Made by a program: the position numbers and the translations under genes. A stretch of DNA of 64,000 nt from Spirochaetaceae bacterium (GTDB taxonomy: Bacteria; Spirochaetota; Spirochaetia; Treponematales; Rectinemataceae), in assembly GCA_026418115.1 (NCBI GenBank), contig JAOABY010000002.1, forward strand, positions 1 through 64,000, given 5' to 3'. This document shows positions 54,360 through 63,897 of the stretch, in pieces. The notes under the pieces were generated by a model. That model searched no databases. It saw only the letters and a program-made list of their open reading frames with translations, and was not told the origin of the DNA. Numbering within the stretch: position 1 is the stretch's first letter; each line of letters begins with the position of its first letter.

Positions 54360-54977
54360 TCAGCTGTGGTGCTCCCTGTCTCCGGATCTCGTCATGTGCA
54401 GCAGCACTCTGTCGAGACCCTCGCCCAGCTCTACCAATGACCCGGAATTCCGGACATACCAGACTCGGGGAGTCTGGCGTGGGCGCAGGGTCCACAGCTG
54501 GCGCTGGCTCCAGATGCGGCTGATCGCATGGAGTATGCTGGCGCCATCTCGTCCTGCAGCTCTCTGCAGCCGCAGGTAGAGCGGGGCCTTGACTTCAATC
54601 ACTGCTTCACAGCGGTTGAGGTGGGGGAAACGGTAGAGGAGTGCGGCATTGATGCAGAGCTGCTCTGTCCCCGCTGCCTCTGCTGCCTCGAGGCGGGCGT
54701 CAAGGAGTGAGAGCATCCGGGGATGCACAATCGACTCGAGTCGGCGCATTGCAGCCGCATCGCGAAACACCAGCGCACCGAGTATCTTTCTGTTGATGCG
54801 GCCATCGCCATCGAGAATGCCCGATCCAAATTCACGGGTAAGCCGTTCGGTTTCCAGACTCAGTGCTTCGTGTCCAAGCCGGTCCACATCGATGATTTCC
54901 CAACCCCGTTCTGCCAGAAGATTGGCTGCCTCGTTCTTGCCTGCACAGTAGCCGCCTGTCAGCCCAATAATTCTCAT
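54360..54977 (-). CDS. coaE: Dephospho-CoA kinase (divergent)
   Basis: MRIIGLTGGYCAGKNEAANLLAERGWEIIDVDRLGHEAL; IVHPRML. Confidence 0.88.
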   Translation of the reverse strand: MRIIGLTGGYCAGKNEAANLLAERGWEIIDVDRLGHEALSLETERLTREFGSGILDGDGRINRKILGALVFRDAAAMRRLESIVHPRMLSLLDARLEAAEAAGTEQLCINAALLYRFPHLNRCEAVIEVKAPLYLRLQRAAGRDGASILHAISRIWSQRQLWTLRPRQTPRVWYVRNSGSLVELGEGLDRVLLHMTRSGDREHHS

Positions 54978-55009
54978 GCCGTCAGTTCCTCCTCCTGCTC
55001 CCTGCCATT

Positions 55010-57946
55010 TCACACGTGCATGGCGCCCCATGAAGGAGCAGACTCTATGCTCACCCGCAGAGGTATTTCGAGCTGCACCGCATGCTCCATCTCGTGACGG
55101 ATCAGCGCCATGGCGCGCTCCGCCAGTTGTACGGGTGCTTCAAAAATCAGTTCATCATGAACCTGGAGCAGCATCTTTACCTCGGGTATGGCCTGCTCCA
55201 GCGCCTTTTGGACACGGATCATGGCGATCTTCACAATGTCGGCTGCAGTGCCCTGGATGGGGGTATTCACCGCCACTCGCTGTGCGCCCTGCTGCTCGGT
55301 CTTGTTGCGTGAAGTAATAGCAAGGATGCGTCTGCGTCGTCCGAAGAGTGTGGTCACATGTTCCGTGCTTTCGGCTTCCTCGATTGTCTTCCTTATAAAA
55401 TCTGCGATTCCAGCATAGGTTGCGAAGTAGGCATCGATGAAGGCCTTGGCACGCCCATTCGGGATACCCAGATCCCTGGCGAGCCTGAAGGCACTCATGC
55501 CGTAGATCACGCCGAAATTGATGGTTTTTGCGATACGACGCTGGCTTGCATCCACCTCGGACTCAGGTATGCCGAATATGAAGGAAGCGGTTCGCCTGTG
55601 GATGTCGACTCCCTCCCGGAAGGCGGCCAGCAGGTTGGGATCTCTGGAAAGATGGGCCAGCACAGCGAGCTCGATCTGCGAGTAATCGGCGGATATGAGC
55701 ACATGACCGGGTTCGGCGATGAAGGCGTCACGGATACGGCGCCCTTCCTCCTCCCGAATCGGGATGTTCTGAAGGTTTGGATCCCTGCTGGACAGTCGGC
55801 CGGTAGCTGCGCCTGTCTGCAGGTAGGTAGTGTGGATGCGCCCCCATCGTTCCGCAAGCTGGGCGAGTGGCTCGACATAGGTGCTCTTGAGCTTGGCGAG
55901 CATGCGGTAGCGCAGAATCAGCTCGGGTACGGGATCGAGCGGAGCGAGCTCTTCCAGCACCGATACATCGGTTGAGATGCCGGTTCTGGTTCGCTTCTGG
56001 ATCGGGAGTTTGCGCTCTCCAAACAGCACCTCTGCGAGCTGTTTGGGTGACGCGATGTTGAAAGGATGACCGACGAGCTTATAGATCTCCTGCTCGATTC
56101 TTCCCATCTCAATTTCCAGTTCCGCACCATAGGCACGGAGCTTTCCGGCATCGACCCGAATGCCATGCTCCTCCATTTCGGCAAGAATGGGAATGAGGGG
56201 CATCTCGATTTCGTAGAATACCTTGCTGAGCCCTTCAGACTCCAGGGCTTCCCTGAAATGCCTGTAGAGTCTGTAGGTGAAGTCGGCATCCTCGCAGGCG
56301 TACTGAGTAGCGGGGGACAGAGCAACATCAGCGAACGTGCTGCCTTTGGGGACCACCTCATCGAATGCCAGGCCTTCGAGGCCAAGGTGGCGGGAGGCGA
56401 GGGTCGAGAGGCTGAAGGAGAGAGCCTCGGCGTCGAGTACCCATGCCGCGATCATGGTGTCGAACAGGGGGCGTCTGACGCGGATGCCTAGTCTGGCCAA
56501 GACGTGAAGGTCGAACTTGATGTTGTGACCGACGAGCACAAGCTCTGTCCCCGTTGCTGCTGGTGCTGCGGCGGTTGTTTGCACCTCCTTGCTGGGGGCT
56601 GCAGCGGAGCCTGCCCAGGCCTGATAGTCTGTCTCCATGCCGGCCAGGCGGGCGAGCGCATGGCGGGCTGCTTCGATCCCCACGCTCTGTCCCTCTGGAT
56701 TGATGAGCGGCACATACCAGGCGATTCCCTCTTCGCAGCACAGCGAAAAACCGACCAGGTCTGCATGCAGGGGATCCAGCGACGTGGTTTCAGTATCCAG
56801 CGCGCATACGCCGGCAGCAAGACAGCGATCAATTACGCGCGTCAGGGTTGCAGCATCGAGTACCGCTTCGTAATGGGCGGGGACAGAGCTGCGCGAACCG
56901 GCTGCCTCGAGGCGAACGCTCGCTGGTTCGGATGGTCGAGAGGTCTCAAGGCTCGGCGACAGGGACGGTGCAAAGGGCTGAGCCTGCTCCAGCTCTGTCC
57001 CCATCGCTGCCTGTGCAGCAGGTGCAGCGGTTCCGGCAGCAGATACTGTGCTGAGATAGCGGCTGACCGTGACGGCCTCGGGTACCAGGCTTTTCATGTC
57101 ATCAGCAAGGAAGAGGGGAGCTGCTCTGGTGTGATCCAGTCTCGCCACCAGTGCATCCGGTTCGACCATACATTCTGGTACGCTCTCGCAGAGCGTCACC
57201 AGTTCGCGTGAGACAAAGGCATCCTGCTTCCCTGCTTCCAGCTTCCGCCGGAGGGATTCCGGCTCTATTTCCTCCAGGTGCTCATAGATTGCGTCCAGAC
57301 TGCCGAACTGCGCCAGCAGTTTCTGCGCGGTCTTGTCGCCGATGCCCTTTACTCCCGGCACATTATCTGAGACATCCCCTACGAGCGAGAGATAATCCCG
57401 GATCTGCGCAGGGGTCACACCCCATTCGGTGAACACGCCCTCGGCATCGATTTCCCGGAAACCGAATCCTTCTGCAGGCCTCAGCGCTCGTGTTCCGTTC
57501 CCAACCAGCTGGAGCAGATCCTTGTCGCCCGACACGATGAAGCATGCACGGCCTTCGCGCTCGCATTTTCTGGCCAGTGTCGCAATCACATCATCAGCCT
57601 CATACCCCTCGCACCGCAAGGCAGGCACGCTGAGCGCCTCGAGCAGAGCTTCCACCTTTGGGAACTGGGCCAGCAGGTCATCTGGCGTCTTCTGCCTAGT
57701 TGCCTTGTACGCCTCGAACTGCTGATGCCTGAATGTTGGGCCTCTGGAGTCGAGCACAGCTGCGAACAGCGCAGGCTTCCGCTGCTCGAACAGCGAGAAC
57801 AGAAAGCGGAAAAATCCATACACCGCCGAGACATTCTCACCGCGGGAATTGCGCAGCGGCTTGCGGATGAAGGCAAAATATGCCCGATAGACAAAAGCAT
57901 ACACATCGAGCAGATAGAGTGGCGCTTTATCATGCGGCTGGGACAT
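55010..57946 (-). CDS. polA: DNA polymerase I
   Basis: 5' nuclease domain, 3'-5' exonuclease motifs DTETTSLDP/GHNIKFDL/YACEDADFTY, polymerase motifs ADYSQIELAVLAHLS, LLQVHDELIFE. Confidence 0.97.
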   Translation of the reverse strand: MSQPHDKAPLYLLDVYAFVYRAYFAFIRKPLRNSRGENVSAVYGFFRFLFSLFEQRKPALFAAVLDSRGPTFRHQQFEAYKATRQKTPDDLLAQFPKVEALLEALSVPALRCEGYEADDVIATLARKCEREGRACFIVSGDKDLLQLVGNGTRALRPAEGFGFREIDAEGVFTEWGVTPAQIRDYLSLVGDVSDNVPGVKGIGDKTAQKLLAQFGSLDAIYEHLEEIEPESLRRKLEAGKQDAFVSRELVTLCESVPECMVEPDALVARLDHTRAAPLFLADDMKSLVPEAVTVSRYLSTVSAAGTAAPAAQAAMGTELEQAQPFAPSLSPSLETSRPSEPASVRLEAAGSRSSVPAHYEAVLDAATLTRVIDRCLAAGVCALDTETTSLDPLHADLVGFSLCCEEGIAWYVPLINPEGQSVGIEAARHALARLAGMETDYQAWAGSAAAPSKEVQTTAAAPAATGTELVLVGHNIKFDLHVLARLGIRVRRPLFDTMIAAWVLDAEALSFSLSTLASRHLGLEGLAFDEVVPKGSTFADVALSPATQYACEDADFTYRLYRHFREALESEGLSKVFYEIEMPLIPILAEMEEHGIRVDAGKLRAYGAELEIEMGRIEQEIYKLVGHPFNIASPKQLAEVLFGERKLPIQKRTRTGISTDVSVLEELAPLDPVPELILRYRMLAKLKSTYVEPLAQLAERWGRIHTTYLQTGAATGRLSSRDPNLQNIPIREEEGRRIRDAFIAEPGHVLISADYSQIELAVLAHLSRDPNLLAAFREGVDIHRRTASFIFGIPESEVDASQRRIAKTINFGVIYGMSAFRLARDLGIPNGRAKAFIDAYFATYAGIADFIRKTIEEAESTEHVTTLFGRRRRILAITSRNKTEQQGAQRVAVNTPIQGTAADIVKIAMIRVQKALEQAIPEVKMLLQVHDELIFEAPVQLAERAMALIRHEMEHAVQLEIPLRVSIESAPSWGAMHV

Positions 57947-58038
57947 GGGCAGTCTCCTTGTGTGCAATCGTGTGGTGCAGGGATGGGAAGTGAGGCAACT
58001 GACCGTGCAATTGAAGCGGTGTCGCCATTGTAGCCAAA

Positions 58039-58569
58039 TCAGCGGCTGCGCCGCCGGGCTTCTTCCCAGGTTTCGATAAGCTGGTACGCATTGTTGATCC
58101 GTGCACTCATCTCGGTAGCGCGCCGCAGAGCCTCAGGCTCATGCGTATGCCGGTCGGGATGGTGCTGTTTCAGAAGTTCCTTGTAGCGTGCCTTGACCTC
58201 GGCAAAGGGTGCATAGGGTGGAAGACCCAGAAAACGGTATGCATCTTCGACAGCCTTGCGTTCCTGGGCAAAGCGGGGATCCTCAGTGAACCGCCCCGAT
58301 CCTCCTGGTCTCTCATGCCATCGTGACTGCTGCCCGGTAGTTTCCTCGAAGGGACTATGTCCTGGTCTGCTGCCCGTTCGGTTTTGCTCGCGATCGGGAT
58401 TGAGAAACTGTTCCAGCTCCTCCCATGCATCGGCCAGATCAGGGTCGGAGAAGGGTTCGCGGCTGCCGAAGATACTGCTTCCATCGGCACCTGTCGCCGA
58501 GTTCACCCAGGATTTCACAAGCCTCTCGAGTCGTTCGAACAGCTGGTCCACACTCACCTCGCCATACAA
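58039..58569 (-). CDS. Protein with C-terminal J domain (DnaJ-like)
   Basis: YRFLGLPPYAPFAEVKARYKELLKQHHPDRHTHEPEALRRATEMSARINNAY with HPD motif. Confidence 0.88.
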   Translation of the reverse strand: MYGEVSVDQLFERLERLVKSWVNSATGADGSSIFGSREPFSDPDLADAWEELEQFLNPDREQNRTGSRPGHSPFEETTGQQSRWHERPGGSGRFTEDPRFAQERKAVEDAYRFLGLPPYAPFAEVKARYKELLKQHHPDRHTHEPEALRRATEMSARINNAYQLIETWEEARRRSR

Positions 58570-58695
58570 TACAGGAACATGCTAGCATGCAGATATCGCA
58601 GCGCTCTCACTATGCCAGGCTGCGAAGTGCGCCTGGTTCGCATCAGGCTGCGCACGCATCATAAGCATAGTCCACAGCCCTATTGGAGGCAAGCC

Positions 58696-59931
58696 ATGGC
58701 GGAACAGACACCCCGCTGCATCGTCCTCGGAGGCATCAATCTCGATATCCAGGGCTTTGCCGGAAACTGGGGAGGGGACAGAGCTGAGGAAACCGGCTCC
58801 AGTCAACGTTTTCTGCTGCGTGATCCCATACTGCATGACTCCAATCCGGGGCGTGTGCACCGCACGCCGGGAGGGGTGGGGAGAAATATCGCCGAAAATC
58901 TGGCACGGCTTGAGCTCTGTCCCCAGCTGGTCACTGTAGTCGGAACCGGCGCGTCCTGGCGCAGTCTGATTCGTCATACCCGAGCGCTCGGAATAGGGCT
59001 CGACTGCTCGATCAGTATCCCTGGAGCGCCTCTGCCCGTCTACCTCTGTATACTGCAGGCGGATTGCGGCCTTCACACCGCAATCAGCGACATGCGGGCA
59101 CTTGAGGCCCTCACGCCGGAAAGGCTCGAGCCGCTTCTGCCTCAGCTTGCGTCTGCCGATTGCCTTGTAGTCGATGCCAATCTGCCTCAACCTACCATTG
59201 CATGGATTGCTGCGAACTTCGGGCGGCAGCGGGGCTCGCGGGGGAGCTCACTGGGGACAGAGCTCTCTGATGGCATGAGACGCCCTCTGCTGGTTGCCGA
59301 TACCGTCTCCGCTGCCAAGGCTGCCAGAATGCGCGACTGCCTGGGTGCGTTTGATATTGTCAAACCCAACCTTGCAGAAATGGCAGTACTGGCGGACACC
59401 ACGATGGAGCCGGGCGGCCATGCTAATAGCGCCTCATTTGGCGCGCCATCCGATGTACCTCAAATCCCGGAATCTGCTTCCACCCTTGCCCTGGCACGCG
59501 CGCTCGCGGACCGCCTCCAGGCGCTCGGCAGAATGCCCGGCAGGCTTTTTCTCTCTCTGGGGACAGAGGGCATGTTATACCGATCGGCGAGCGAGGAAGG
59601 TCATCTGATGCTGCCACCTGCATCGCTCAGGCCGCCAATCGTCAATCGTTCGGGAGCAGGCGACGCCGCCTGTGCAGCCATCACCTGGGCTCATGTTCGG
59701 GCCAGAGCGTACGGGCTCACACCTTCAACAGAGCGGCAGGGGGAAGCACGAGGAACAGAGCTCGATCGTGCTCTGTCTCCGCGCTTCGCGGCAGCCCTCG
59801 CCATCAGCGCTGCGGTGCTTACCGCTTCCTCCCGCCGCACGGTGCATCGCAGGCTCTGTCCCCGCCTGCTGTGCGAAGCTGCTGCGGGATGGTATCCTGA
59901 GCTTGCGGAGCATATAAAGGAATTCATATAG
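58696..59931 (+). CDS. psuK: PfkB-family carbohydrate kinase, probable pseudouridine kinase
   Basis: IVLGGINLDIQG, HDSNPGRVHRTPGGVGRNIAENLARL, NRSGAGDAACAAI; adjacent to psuG. Confidence 0.87.
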   Translation: MAEQTPRCIVLGGINLDIQGFAGNWGGDRAEETGSSQRFLLRDPILHDSNPGRVHRTPGGVGRNIAENLARLELCPQLVTVVGTGASWRSLIRHTRALGIGLDCSISIPGAPLPVYLCILQADCGLHTAISDMRALEALTPERLEPLLPQLASADCLVVDANLPQPTIAWIAANFGRQRGSRGSSLGTELSDGMRRPLLVADTVSAAKAARMRDCLGAFDIVKPNLAEMAVLADTTMEPGGHANSASFGAPSDVPQIPESASTLALARALADRLQALGRMPGRLFLSLGTEGMLYRSASEEGHLMLPPASLRPPIVNRSGAGDAACAAITWAHVRARAYGLTPSTERQGEARGTELDRALSPRFAAALAISAAVLTASSRRTVHRRLCPRLLCEAAAGWYPELAEHIKEFI

Positions 59932-59945
59932 AAAGAGGAGCAGCC

Positions 59946-60866
59946 ATGAACCGGTATCTCGACGTGAGTGAAGAAGTTGCCGTTGCGCTCAAGACTGATA
60001 TGCCAGTGGTAGCATTGGAGTCTACCATTATCAGCCATGGCATGCCCTGGCCGCGAAACCTTGAGACAGCCCTTGCGGTGGAGCAGGCTGTGCGTGAAGA
60101 AGGTGCCGTTCCTGCTACCATTGCCATCATCAGAGGACGGATCAAAATCGGACTGACCCGTGAGGAACTCCAGGCCTTTGCAGATGGCTCCCTGCATCCC
60201 ATTAAGGTTTCTCGCCGTGATCTTCCTGCTGTCATAGCCCGTCAGGAGAACGGGGCGACTACGGTAGCCGGCACCATGATCGCAGCAGCAATGGCCGGCA
60301 TTCGTGTCTTTGCTACCGGTGGCATAGGTGGGGTACACCGCGGTGCTGAACATTCCTGGGATGTCTCCGCCGATCTTGAGGAACTGGCCATGACCTCAGT
60401 TGCAGTCGTGTGCGCAGGCGCAAAGGCCATCCTCGATCTGCCCAAGACCACGGAGTACCTTGAAACCCGAGGTGTGCCCGTAATTGGCTACGGTACGGAT
60501 GAGCTGCCCGCATTCTACTCGAGAGAATCCGGCATAGCTCTGTCCCTCCGCGCCGACACCCCTGAAGCCGTAGCCCGCATGCTTGCCGCAAAATGGAACC
60601 TGGGGCTTGCAGGTGGGGCCGTGATCGCCAATCCAATCCCCAATGAGCAGGCCATGCCAGGCGAGATCATTGAAAAAGCCATTTCCACCGCGCTCGCGGA
60701 GCTTGCACCCAGGAATATACAGGGCGCAGCAGTGACCCCCTATCTGCTGGCTCGAGTGGCGGAGCTCACCGGCGGCGATTCGCTGGACAGCAACATTGCA
60801 CTCGTGATGAACAATGCGCGCCTTGCAGCCCGCATTGCGGCAGCACTCACTGCCATGGAGGACTGA
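59946..60866 (+). CDS. psuG: Pseudouridine-5'-phosphate glycosidase
   Basis: VVALESTIISHGMPWPRNLETA, FATGGIGGVHRGAEHSWDVSADLEEL, SVAVVCAGAKAILDLPKTTEYLETRGVPV. Confidence 0.96.
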   Translation: MNRYLDVSEEVAVALKTDMPVVALESTIISHGMPWPRNLETALAVEQAVREEGAVPATIAIIRGRIKIGLTREELQAFADGSLHPIKVSRRDLPAVIARQENGATTVAGTMIAAAMAGIRVFATGGIGGVHRGAEHSWDVSADLEELAMTSVAVVCAGAKAILDLPKTTEYLETRGVPVIGYGTDELPAFYSRESGIALSLRADTPEAVARMLAAKWNLGLAGGAVIANPIPNEQAMPGEIIEKAISTALAELAPRNIQGAAVTPYLLARVAELTGGDSLDSNIALVMNNARLAARIAAALTAMED

Positions 60867-60871
60867 ACACC

Positions 60872-61996
60872 ATGCGCACCTCTACAGTATGGTGGACCGA
60901 CCTGCATACCAGACCTGGGCGCAGCCTTCTGGCAAAATTCGAGCAGCTCCTGGTTGCAGCCGGAATAGATACCATCGATGTTGCCCACAAGTTTGTCGCC
61001 ATCAAGATCCACTTTGGCGAACCGGGCAACCTTGCCTACATTCGACCCAACTATGCCCGCACCCTTGTGAGCATGCTGCAGCAGCGCAAGGCCATTCCCT
61101 TCCTTACCGATTGCAATACGCTCTACAAGGGACGCCGTGCCAATGCAGTCGACCACCTGCAGAGCGCCTGGGAGAACGGATTTGAACCCCTCACAATAGG
61201 CTGCCCGATCATCATCGCCGATGGGCTCAAAGGCACCGACCAGCGCGACATTCCTACCGGCTGCAGGCACTGTCCCACTGCCCATATCGGCAGTGCCATT
61301 GCGGATGCGGATATCATCATCTCGATGAACCATTTCAAGGGGCACGAGCTGACAGGCATCGGGGGAGCACTCAAGAATATCGGGATGGGTTCGGGCTCTG
61401 TCCCCGGAAAACTCGCCATGCACTCCGACAGCAAGCCGACCATCCGCGAGCAGCACTGCACCGGCTGTGGCCAGTGCGAACGCAACTGTGCGCACGATGC
61501 AATCCATGTGAACAGCGGCAAGGCAAGCATCGACTATGTGCGCTGTGTCGGCTGCGGCCAATGCATTGCAGTCTGCATGTTCCGCGCCGCAGTGCCGCGG
61601 TGGGACTCGAAGACCACCCAGGAAAAGATCATGGAGTATGCGAAAGCCGTGCTGACAGGCAAGCCTTCCTTTCACATCAATTTTGTGACCTCGGTATCCC
61701 CCAATTGCGACTGCAACGCCGACAATGATATCCCCCTCGTCCATGACCTTGGCATTGCCGCATCATTTGATCCTGTGGCGCTGGATCAGGCTTGTGCTGA
61801 TATGGTGAACGCTGCTCCGGTCAACCCTGCAAGCAGCATCGCCGAGGCCTGGATGCGTGCGGACTCCCACCGTACAGACTCGCAACCCGACAAGTTCACG
61901 CTTGCCCAGCCCCGCACCGACTGGCGACTTGGCCTTGCATATGCCGAGGAGATCGGTCTGGGCAGCAGAAACTATCAACTTGAGATACTGCACTAG
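60872..61996 (+). CDS. DUF362 domain 4Fe-4S binding protein
   Basis: VAIKIHFGEPGN, SMNHFKGHELTGIGGALKNIGMG, CTGCGQCERNC and CVGCGQCIAVC. Confidence 0.93.
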   Translation: MRTSTVWWTDLHTRPGRSLLAKFEQLLVAAGIDTIDVAHKFVAIKIHFGEPGNLAYIRPNYARTLVSMLQQRKAIPFLTDCNTLYKGRRANAVDHLQSAWENGFEPLTIGCPIIIADGLKGTDQRDIPTGCRHCPTAHIGSAIADADIIISMNHFKGHELTGIGGALKNIGMGSGSVPGKLAMHSDSKPTIREQHCTGCGQCERNCAHDAIHVNSGKASIDYVRCVGCGQCIAVCMFRAAVPRWDSKTTQEKIMEYAKAVLTGKPSFHINFVTSVSPNCDCNADNDIPLVHDLGIAASFDPVALDQACADMVNAAPVNPASSIAEAWMRADSHRTDSQPDKFTLAQPRTDWRLGLAYAEEIGLGSRNYQLEILH

Positions 61997-62011
61997 AAAG
62001 GAGCATGGGAA

Positions 62012-62839
62012 ATGAAGCTGCTGCGCTGTCTCCATAAGGATCGCATCTGGAATGGGACGCTCGATGCTGAAGATGGCCAAACCTTCACAGTCCTGCAATC
62101 CGGGGATCAGGGCACCGGCATCACCCCGAAGGTAATGCTCAGGGATGCTGCGCCAGTGCTGAGGGAGGATGGTTCGATACAGCTGGGTGAGCCTGTGGGC
62201 TCTGTCCCCCTCGATCAGGTACGAATCCTCGCGCCCTGTGTGCCGAGCAAGGCTGTCTGTATCGGGCTCAATTACCGCGATCATGCCAGGGAGCTTGGAT
62301 TGCCTTTGCCCGCAGCGCCTGTCGTGTTTCTCAAACCTTCAACCTCTCTGCTCGATCCTGATGGTACCATTCAGTATCCTGATCTCTCGCACAGAGTCGA
62401 CTATGAGGCGGAGCTTGTAGTAGTCATCGGGAGGACCGCCCGGCATGTGAAGCCAGAGGCTGCTACGGCCCATATCCTTGGCTACACCTGCGGCAACGAC
62501 GTCACTGCCCGTGATCTTCAGCCAAAAGACGGCCAGTGGACTGTAGCGAAATCCTTTGATACGTTCATGCCGCTGGGCCCGTGGATTGCAACAGACCTCG
62601 ATCCAGCTCACCTGGAAATCAGGGCAATCCACAATGGCAGGGTAGTGCAGCACTCGAATACATTCAATCTCATTTTTGGCGTATGCGATCTTGTTGCCTA
62701 CCTGTCGAGCATCATGACGCTGCTTCCCGGTGATGTCATCATGACGGGCACTCCCTCCGGCATAGGGCCGATGCAGCGTGGCGACCGGATCGCCATCGAA
62801 ATCGAGGGCATCGGCCGGCTGGAAAACACCGTAGGCTAG
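62012..62839 (+). CDS. Fumarylacetoacetate hydrolase family protein
   Basis: AVCIGLNYRDHARELG, VFLKPSTSLLDP, VDYEAELVVVIGRTARHV, GDVIMTGTPSGIGPM. Confidence 0.95.
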   Translation: MKLLRCLHKDRIWNGTLDAEDGQTFTVLQSGDQGTGITPKVMLRDAAPVLREDGSIQLGEPVGSVPLDQVRILAPCVPSKAVCIGLNYRDHARELGLPLPAAPVVFLKPSTSLLDPDGTIQYPDLSHRVDYEAELVVVIGRTARHVKPEAATAHILGYTCGNDVTARDLQPKDGQWTVAKSFDTFMPLGPWIATDLDPAHLEIRAIHNGRVVQHSNTFNLIFGVCDLVAYLSSIMTLLPGDVIMTGTPSGIGPMQRGDRIAIEIEGIGRLENTVG

Positions 62840-62982
62840 ATCCGGCATCCCCGGGCACGCCGGGCAAATCGGCTGTGGGCGGGCAATGGGGACAGAGCAT
62901 GGAGGGGTGATAGGGACCGAGCATGAAGCGCGCCTGCCAGGGACAGCAGGCGGGCAACACAAGGGGACAGAGGCTGAATACA

Positions 62983-63897
62983 ATGGTACTTTCAAGGGTT
63001 GTGTCGATTTTTCTGCTCATGGCGGTTGGCTACCTTGCACGCAGGGCAAGAGTCATTGAGGCACAGGGAATCAAGACCATTTCCTCGATCGTGCTCAACG
63101 TGACACTGCCATTCACCATTCTTTTCAGTTTCGACAGAAGCATCCCCTTTTCCGCGGCGGCCGACCTTGTCCGCATGGCGATCTTCTCACTGGCCATCCA
63201 TGGGCTGCTGGCCGCTGCAACCCGGTTCGCATATGGCAGGCTCATGTTTCGTGCAGAACCCCTGTCGAGCCGCAAGATTCTTGCCTACATCACCATCTTT
63301 TCAAACTGTGGCTTCATGGGCTTTCCCGTCACCGAGAGCGTGTTCGGCAAGATCGGGGTCATGTATGCCTCGATCTATGTCATTATTTTCAACATTTTCG
63401 TGTGGACCTACGGTGTCGCACTTCTGGCCGGCAGCGAGACTGCCCGTCCTCCTCTCAAGGCTATAGTGCTGAATCCGGGAAATATCGCGGTGGTGGCAGG
63501 ACTCGCGCTGTGGCTCGCTCCCTTCCAGCTTCCAGAAACCATTACCTATGCGTTCAATCTCGTCGCGAACTGTACGACCCCTCTTTCGATGATCGTCGTA
63601 GGTGCCACGCTCGGTGGCCTGCCTCTGAAAGGGCTGTTCAAGGGGACAGAGGTCTGGATAGGAACCATTATAAGGCTTGCTCTGGTGCCTGCTGTAATCT
63701 GGTTGCTCTTCCAGGCTTTTGGTCAGTATGGAATGGCTGCCCGGGTCGCGGTATTCCTGACAGCGATGCCCGCTGCAGCCCAGACCGTCATCTTCGCCGA
63801 GCGCTACGAAGCCGATATCGCGCTTGCCAGTCGCATCGTTTTCATCTCGACCGTGCTCTCAGTGCTCACCATTCCCATCGCCGCTCAGTTGCTCTGA
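62983..63897 (+). CDS. AEC (auxin efflux carrier) family transporter
   Basis: MAVGYLARRARVIEAQGIKTISSIVLNVTLPFTILFSF; SNCGFMGFPVTESVFG; multiple TM segments. Confidence 0.9.
   Translation: MVLSRVVSIFLLMAVGYLARRARVIEAQGIKTISSIVLNVTLPFTILFSFDRSIPFSAAADLVRMAIFSLAIHGLLAAATRFAYGRLMFRAEPLSSRKILAYITIFSNCGFMGFPVTESVFGKIGVMYASIYVIIFNIFVWTYGVALLAGSETARPPLKAIVLNPGNIAVVAGLALWLAPFQLPETITYAFNLVANCTTPLSMIVVGATLGGLPLKGLFKGTEVWIGTIIRLALVPAVIWLLFQAFGQYGMAARVAVFLTAMPAAAQTVIFAERYEADIALASRIVFISTVLSVLTIPIAAQLL

Follow-up and report, generated by a model that had tools for sequence, protein, structure and literature searches.

A 12-nt motif recurring inside genes around divergent RAYT genes of spirochaetes, a candidate RAYT partner site

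In the source genome, 12-nt sites form a dense population around the gene of a RAYT, a REP-associated tyrosine transposase that belongs to the Y1 HUH endonucleases of single-stranded DNA; the sites lie within about 15 kb of this gene. Their clustering, their locus-specific spelling and the in-place position of most copies within genes point to an unrecognised partner site of a common, poorly understood enzyme family. As read from sequence, the best explanation overall, to which we assign a probability of about 0.6, would be that the motif serves a divergent RAYT as its cognate site and is maintained by a RAYT-dependent drive. That the motif is the partner site of the RAYT appears very probable in itself. 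That the copies are written by in-place drive is a more tentative proposal, which we would put somewhat below even odds.

The repeat unit is the 12-mer RGGGACAGAGCT. In 407 aligned copies of GGGACAGAGC, information is limited to a preceding purine, ten core positions and a trailing T; no palindrome, hairpin, conserved flank or longer element was found among them. The window (the whole stretch of DNA that was analysed, 64,000 nt) contains 17 copies of the motif, all at 54662-63653 and 15 of them inside genes, which were named by Pfam (Table 1). GGGACAGAGC itself occurs 14 times in the window, between 54662 and 62898, against 0.29 expected from dinucleotide shuffles, and the commonest 9-mer is GGGACAGAG. 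As all GGGACAGAGC copies of the window lie in its final 10 kb, they represent a regional feature that crosses coaE, polA, psuK, psuG and their neighbours. polA carries five motif copies; coaE, psuG, the DUF362 gene, the FAA-hydrolase gene and the transporter gene carry one each. The repeat is thus not specific to psuK, the gene for which the earlier note described it.

Table 1. Copies of the motif in the window, with the psuK gene and the outcome of comparison with homologues.
Feature	Position	Strand	Comparison or remark
coaE (dephospho-CoA kinase gene) copy, GGGGACAGAGC(A)	54662..54672	-	in place in 7/8 homologues
polA copy	56313..56323	+	in place, no gap; many of its 12 nt deviate from the sequence common to five relatives
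polA copy, peptide GTEL	56542..56552	-	stretch mostly absent in homologues
polA copy (AGGGACAGAGC)	56684..56694	-	in place
polA copy	56879..56889	+	variable linker
polA copy, peptide GTEL	56992..57002	-	variable linker
psuK (PfkB-family pseudouridine kinase), 411 aa, frame intact	58696..59931	+	PF00294; alignment with 29 homologues
psuK copy 1, within insertion of ~20 aa	58774..58784	+	an insertion when set against any of the 8 compared relatives
psuK copy 2	58914..58924	-	in place; ELCPQL instead of conserved GL..E(M/L); 8/8 relatives
psuK copy 3	59253..59263	+	loop of genus-wide variable length; homologue alignment
psuK copy 4 (GGGGACAGAGG)	59559..59569	+	in place, conserved LSLGTEG segment; 8/8 relatives
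psuK, two degenerate forms	59751..59780	.	variable loop
psuK copy 5 (RLCPRLLC)	59853..59863	-	in place; 8/8 relatives
psuG copy (AGGGACAGAGC)	60537..60547	-	in place; 9/9 relatives
DUF362/4Fe-4S gene copy	61395..61405	-	Pfam gene name
FAA-hydrolase gene copy	62199..62209	-	Pfam gene name
Intergenic copy	62888..62898	+	
Copy directly ahead of transporter gene start (GGGGACAGAGG)	62963..62973	+	
Transporter-gene copy (GGGGACAGAGG)	63642..63652	+	in place; FKGTEVWIG vs FSRTEVWIG

Over the whole genome (2.17 Mb in 141 contigs), the 11-mer GGGGACAGAGC has 47 exact copies and the reversed pattern has 0. A single stretch, C64:54.6-74 kb on the contig of the window, holds 37 of the 47. With a slightly looser motif, this C64 cluster comprises 48 copies and extends to about 74 kb; the 54 kb of contig ahead of it are free of copies. 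A second population is found on contig C44, in the spellings RGGGACAGAGC and RGGGACGGAGC. Copies spelled GGGGACGGAGC lie close to contig ends at C22:41-47 kb and C112:5.6-7.5 kb; they are probably more pieces of motif populations split by the assembly. Just past the window, at C64:64011-64098, three copies follow each other in direct order with a spacing of 34 and 43 nt. Searches for tRNAs and Rfam families returned none that accounts for the region.

Amid the C64 cluster, about 5 kb past the end of the window, lies a RAYT-like gene of a Y1 HUH endonuclease (C64:68919-69473). The genome has only two Y1_Tnp genes, one per motif cluster, the other being on C44 near 5.1 kb. The Y1_Tnp (HUH) domain PF01797 is recognised with 51-62 bits, for a cut-off of 23. 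Scored with the NCBIfam RAYT model NF047646, whose cut-off is 80, the two source-genome proteins reach 72.1 and 73.6 bits and a relative reaches 79.1. The C64 protein contains HVH at residues 59-61 and YIARNP at 119-124, corresponding to the HUH and class 2 Y---NP motifs and conserved in alignments; Y---NP is the signature of class 2 TnpAY1 (PMC6006769). The closest solved structure to a profile of 24 relatives is TnpAREP (4ER8, E=1.8e-8); phmmer with a single RAYT gave no match in the PDB. Among the guide residues of E. coli TnpAREP, W94, Q95, E100, H101 and R104, the tryptophan alone is kept in the 4ER8 alignment, and these guide-reading residues are reported to be conserved in some subclasses only (PMC6006769). 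The RAYT proteins are short (~150-209 aa), without the long C-terminal domain described for subclass 2.1. Their genes are low-copy and non-IS: the two are different from each other, and each has orthologues in Rectinema subterraneum. Altogether, both Y1_Tnp proteins of the source genome look like divergent RAYTs.

The association of motif and RAYT was followed over 82 RAYT loci, nearly all from spirochaetes; a genome scan contributed 80 further loci. A de novo word search finds GGGACAGA or GGGACGGA (GGGAC[AG]GA), or a near variant, enriched at most of the 82 loci, and at many of them one of these two words is among the top 8-mers. When 52 loci are pooled, the density of the locus-specific word is about one per kb up to 6 kb from the RAYT and about half that at 9-10 kb, with the reversed control near 0. 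In one genome of the order that consists of a single contig, 14 copies lie at most 10 kb from a RAYT, for 0.42 expected. In a set of 41 genomes that comprises the source genome and its relatives up to order level, RAYT carriers are richer in GGGGACAGA, measured against the reversed word (P=0.001). A forward copy stands at most 160 nt upstream of the start of 65 out of 81 RAYT genes, at a median distance of 73 nt; the same test yields a reverse copy in 9 and a control-window copy in 4. About 10% of the copies, taken over all loci, fall outside long reading frames. Several RAYT loci have few or zero motif copies, and one assembly without a RAYT (G001, 71% complete) is still enriched in the motif. 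Rectinema subterraneum is among the RAYT loci, with a contig matching the same-genus genome G002, and the genes of the motif region are syntenic within the genus.

Several RAYT genes are preceded by direct arrays of the motif with a spacing of ~30-43 nt. At loci L096-L175, a second short element (TTGAAGCA, GCAAGC or TTCAATC) is placed between the forward copy and the RAYT start; it is present at about half of the loci having a forward copy. An orientation bias of the motif relative to the RAYT was rejected, being significant in the pooled data (P=9e-4) and failing the per-locus test (P=0.12).

The spelling of the motif is specific to the locus. After GGGAC, the loci read AGAGC, AGAGG, GGAGG, GGAGC, AGACC, AGACA, AGTCC or AGTGC. 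These spellings track the RAYT tree, with 14 changes against 29.5 after shuffling (0 of 200 shuffles as low). Two RAYT loci of one and the same genome are told apart by it: L154 has 16 copies with AGAGC and 0 with AGTCC, L095 has 0 and 13, respectively. In 32 of 42 loci, the copy ahead of the RAYT has the spelling of the population around it. Residues 99, 100 and 103 are among the RAYT columns that covary with spelling, a covariation confounded by phylogeny; they align to the segment of E. coli TnpAREP that holds its guide-reading residues (PMC6006769). We count this residue-spelling covariation as supporting evidence and no more.

How the copies sit relative to homologous sequence can be followed in psuK, for which the earlier note had listed five of them, at 58774(+), 58914(-), 59253(+), 59559(+) and 59853(-), next to two decayed-looking forms. 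All are present, the copy at 59559 with a GG end and the decayed-looking forms at 59751 (two mismatches) and 59768-59770 (one or two mismatches). The proposal that they lie mostly within lineage-specific insertions fails for three out of five: copies 58914, 59559 and 59853 align without gaps to motif-free PsuK homologues. Of the extra, repeat-bearing loops also proposed, the one at 58774 holds, as its segment of ~20 aa is missing in all but one of the 29 aligned PsuK homologues, the exception having an unrelated tandem insertion there. The loops at 59253 and 59751 do not, since they differ in length across the genus and are therefore not lineage-specific. The repeat was also expected to bound such insertions, and in the single clear one of psuK it sits inside. 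The exceptional homologue, L028 of the relative G019, carries at the position of the 58774 insertion a tandem AEVGLT insertion of unrelated sequence; the 58774 loop thus tolerates insertions. We infer that the psuK copies are tolerated by-products and not a feature of the kinase.

When all coding copies are compared with motif-free homologues, 80% of the comparisons are in place (92% in random windows); as a rule, the copies do not lie in segments that homologues lack. Repeat-bearing insertions, the mechanism suggested before, do exist and are enriched 2.7-fold at motif sites, with 16.5% of comparisons against 6.0% in random control windows, and they form a minority overall. At the nucleotide level, relatives differ chiefly by substitutions. 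Copies unique to the source genome can depart from the common sequence of relatives at several of the 12 bases without any gap, as does the one at polA 56313. Conservation is lower in motif codons than in the flanks (0.64 vs 0.80 at ≥70% identity), partly by construction because shared sites were excluded. A mismatch test on close pairs gives no clear preference to either point mutation or replacement of the whole 12-mer as a short tract.

Where a RAYT is present exact copies predominate, and where none was found they erode. Within the corresponding syntenic stretch across the genus, loci of genomes that have a RAYT there hold 114 exact copies and 5 excess one-mismatch copies, and loci grouped as RAYT-less have 27 and 13 (P=1e-5 for the contrast), in a comparison of nine related, non-independent genomes with partly incomplete assemblies. 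A search for RAYT genes found none in four of the five genomes of the RAYT-less group; the fifth, G008, has a RAYT elsewhere in its genome, and its short locus adds zero copies. The predominance of exact copies alongside a RAYT argues against insertion followed by decay in the source genome. Correspondingly, the decay assumed in the earlier note is contradicted for the C64 population, where 49 copies are exact and one-mismatch forms (10) are no more numerous than with the reversed pattern (10). Insertion followed by decay is rejected for most copies.

In the explanation that we favour, the RAYT would bind and nick single strands at the 12-nt site, and a RAYT-dependent bias in transmission or conversion would create and keep copies near the RAYT gene. 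Such a bias would act as a molecular drive on the neighbourhood of that gene, comparable to DNA uptake sequences (DUS), and could occasionally bring short insertions or tandem duplications. The confinement of the copies to the surroundings of the RAYT gene would be part of this drive. We advance only tentatively that a RAYT group with a hairpin-free 12-nt partner site may constitute a selfish local system in which host genes around the RAYT are rewritten in place and core proteins, PolA and PsuK among them, change in sequence. It would be a counterpart of DUS that is regional and driven by the RAYT.

One alternative, which adds a transposase to the idea of the earlier note, is a miniature mobile element, where the RAYT pastes short motif-bearing single-stranded pieces nearby and the inserted sequence is later mostly trimmed or decayed. 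The excess of insertions at motif sites agrees with it, as do psuK 58774, one polA copy and the tandem arrays spaced by 30-43 nt ahead of RAYT genes. So does a topoisomerase-subunit-like gene at C64:73-74 kb, which has long lineage-specific insertions, each with at least two motif copies; judged from such segments, insertion does occur. We nevertheless consider this element unlikely, as four fifths of the comparisons are in place with unchanged length, nothing past the 12-mer is common to the copies and decayed forms are scarce in the presence of a RAYT. The exact conservation and in-place origin of the copies are also what selection on a binding site would produce. A site beneficial to the host (e.g. 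for chromosome organisation, recombination or repair), kept by ordinary selection with the RAYT as a neighbour or secondary user, is nonetheless rather improbable: the clusters accompany RAYT genes at differing chromosomal places and gene neighbourhoods, the spelling tracks the RAYT protein also among loci that share a genome, and erosion of sites with RAYT loss is seen, in a small sample.

A classical genome-wide DNA uptake sequence of natural transformation would match the length, density, in-place origin and dialects of the motif, which resemble those of neisserial DUS (PMC2397512, PMC3630211). The genome also has a ComEC homologue. Such homologues occur in many bacteria. The confinement of the sites to RAYT surroundings, with 37 of the 47 copies packed into 20 kb out of a genome of 2.17 Mb and the first 54 kb of the contig devoid of them, makes an uptake sequence very improbable. 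Chance, base composition, codon use or an assembly artefact might be suspected in an assembly of 141 contigs. They are refuted by shuffled and reversed-word controls near zero, by the same clustering in a single-contig genome of the same order and by the synteny of the genes within the genus.

Among known systems, REP/REPIN sequences with their RAYT (TnpAREP) are similar in that a low-copy, non-IS Y1 HUH gene is linked to a family of short repeats, which adjoin the gene and exist in a variant proper to each RAYT (PMC2817692, PMC3116915, PMC6006769). Known REPs, however, are palindromic, extragenic, about 20-40 nt long and genome-wide (PMC2817692, PMC3116915, PMC6006769), whereas the motif here is 12 nt long, non-palindromic, mostly intragenic and local to the RAYT. 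The link to a RAYT with its specific variant is shared; the missing palindrome and the location in genes rule out a REP proper. In a survey of the superfamily, subclasses 2.1 and 2.3 were without a REP-like partner (PMC6006769). The DUS of Neisseriaceae and Pasteurellaceae are likewise 10-12 nt long, present about once per kb, intragenic and arising in place, with several mismatches to homologues and species-specific dialects that are kept exact (PMC2397512, PMC3630211). DUS are genome-wide and linked to competence; our motif is not distributed genome-wide, being local and linked to a RAYT.

IS200/IS605 elements and their miniature derivatives employ a nuclease of the same HUH/Y1 superfamily. 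They differ from the present case, in which hairpin ends, a defined element surrounding the gene and a repeated inserted unit longer than 12 nt are all missing, and in which the proteins have the class 2 Y---NP motif. In Rickettsia, palindromic elements of roughly 100-150 bp are inserted into protein-coding genes and keep the frame. The motif shares with them the location in coding genes and the intact frame, mostly without insertion and without palindrome. HIP1 of cyanobacteria, also a short over-represented sequence, largely coding and gained in place, is palindromic, genome-wide and without a linked transposase, in contrast to the non-palindromic, local and transposase-linked motif. The open-access papers that were searched yielded no description of the motif. 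A Thiomargarita paper contains GGGGACAG; none of the passages inspected concerns the motif.

RAYT genes occur commonly in bacteria and persist there for long; what benefit they bring is a standing question. A short, exact and computable partner site would predict the binding target of a RAYT and so make this question testable. Natural spelling variants with matching proteins exist, and relatives with and without a RAYT offer a comparison. The pairing would also mean that, across tens of kilobases, the sequences of core proteins are altered by a process besides selection on protein function.

The pairing of motif and RAYT may reach far beyond spirochaetes. Near the RAYT-like gene of Acetoanaerobium noterae (L178), AGGGACGGTT occurs seven times in 20 kb, and GGGTCAGGCCTTGCC occurs four times at that of Legionella adelaidensis (L176). 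In Skermanella mucosa (L179), GGGGTCAG is repeated directly ahead of the RAYT-like gene, and in Sporomusa termitida (L177), GGGGTCAGGCCT is found upstream of it.
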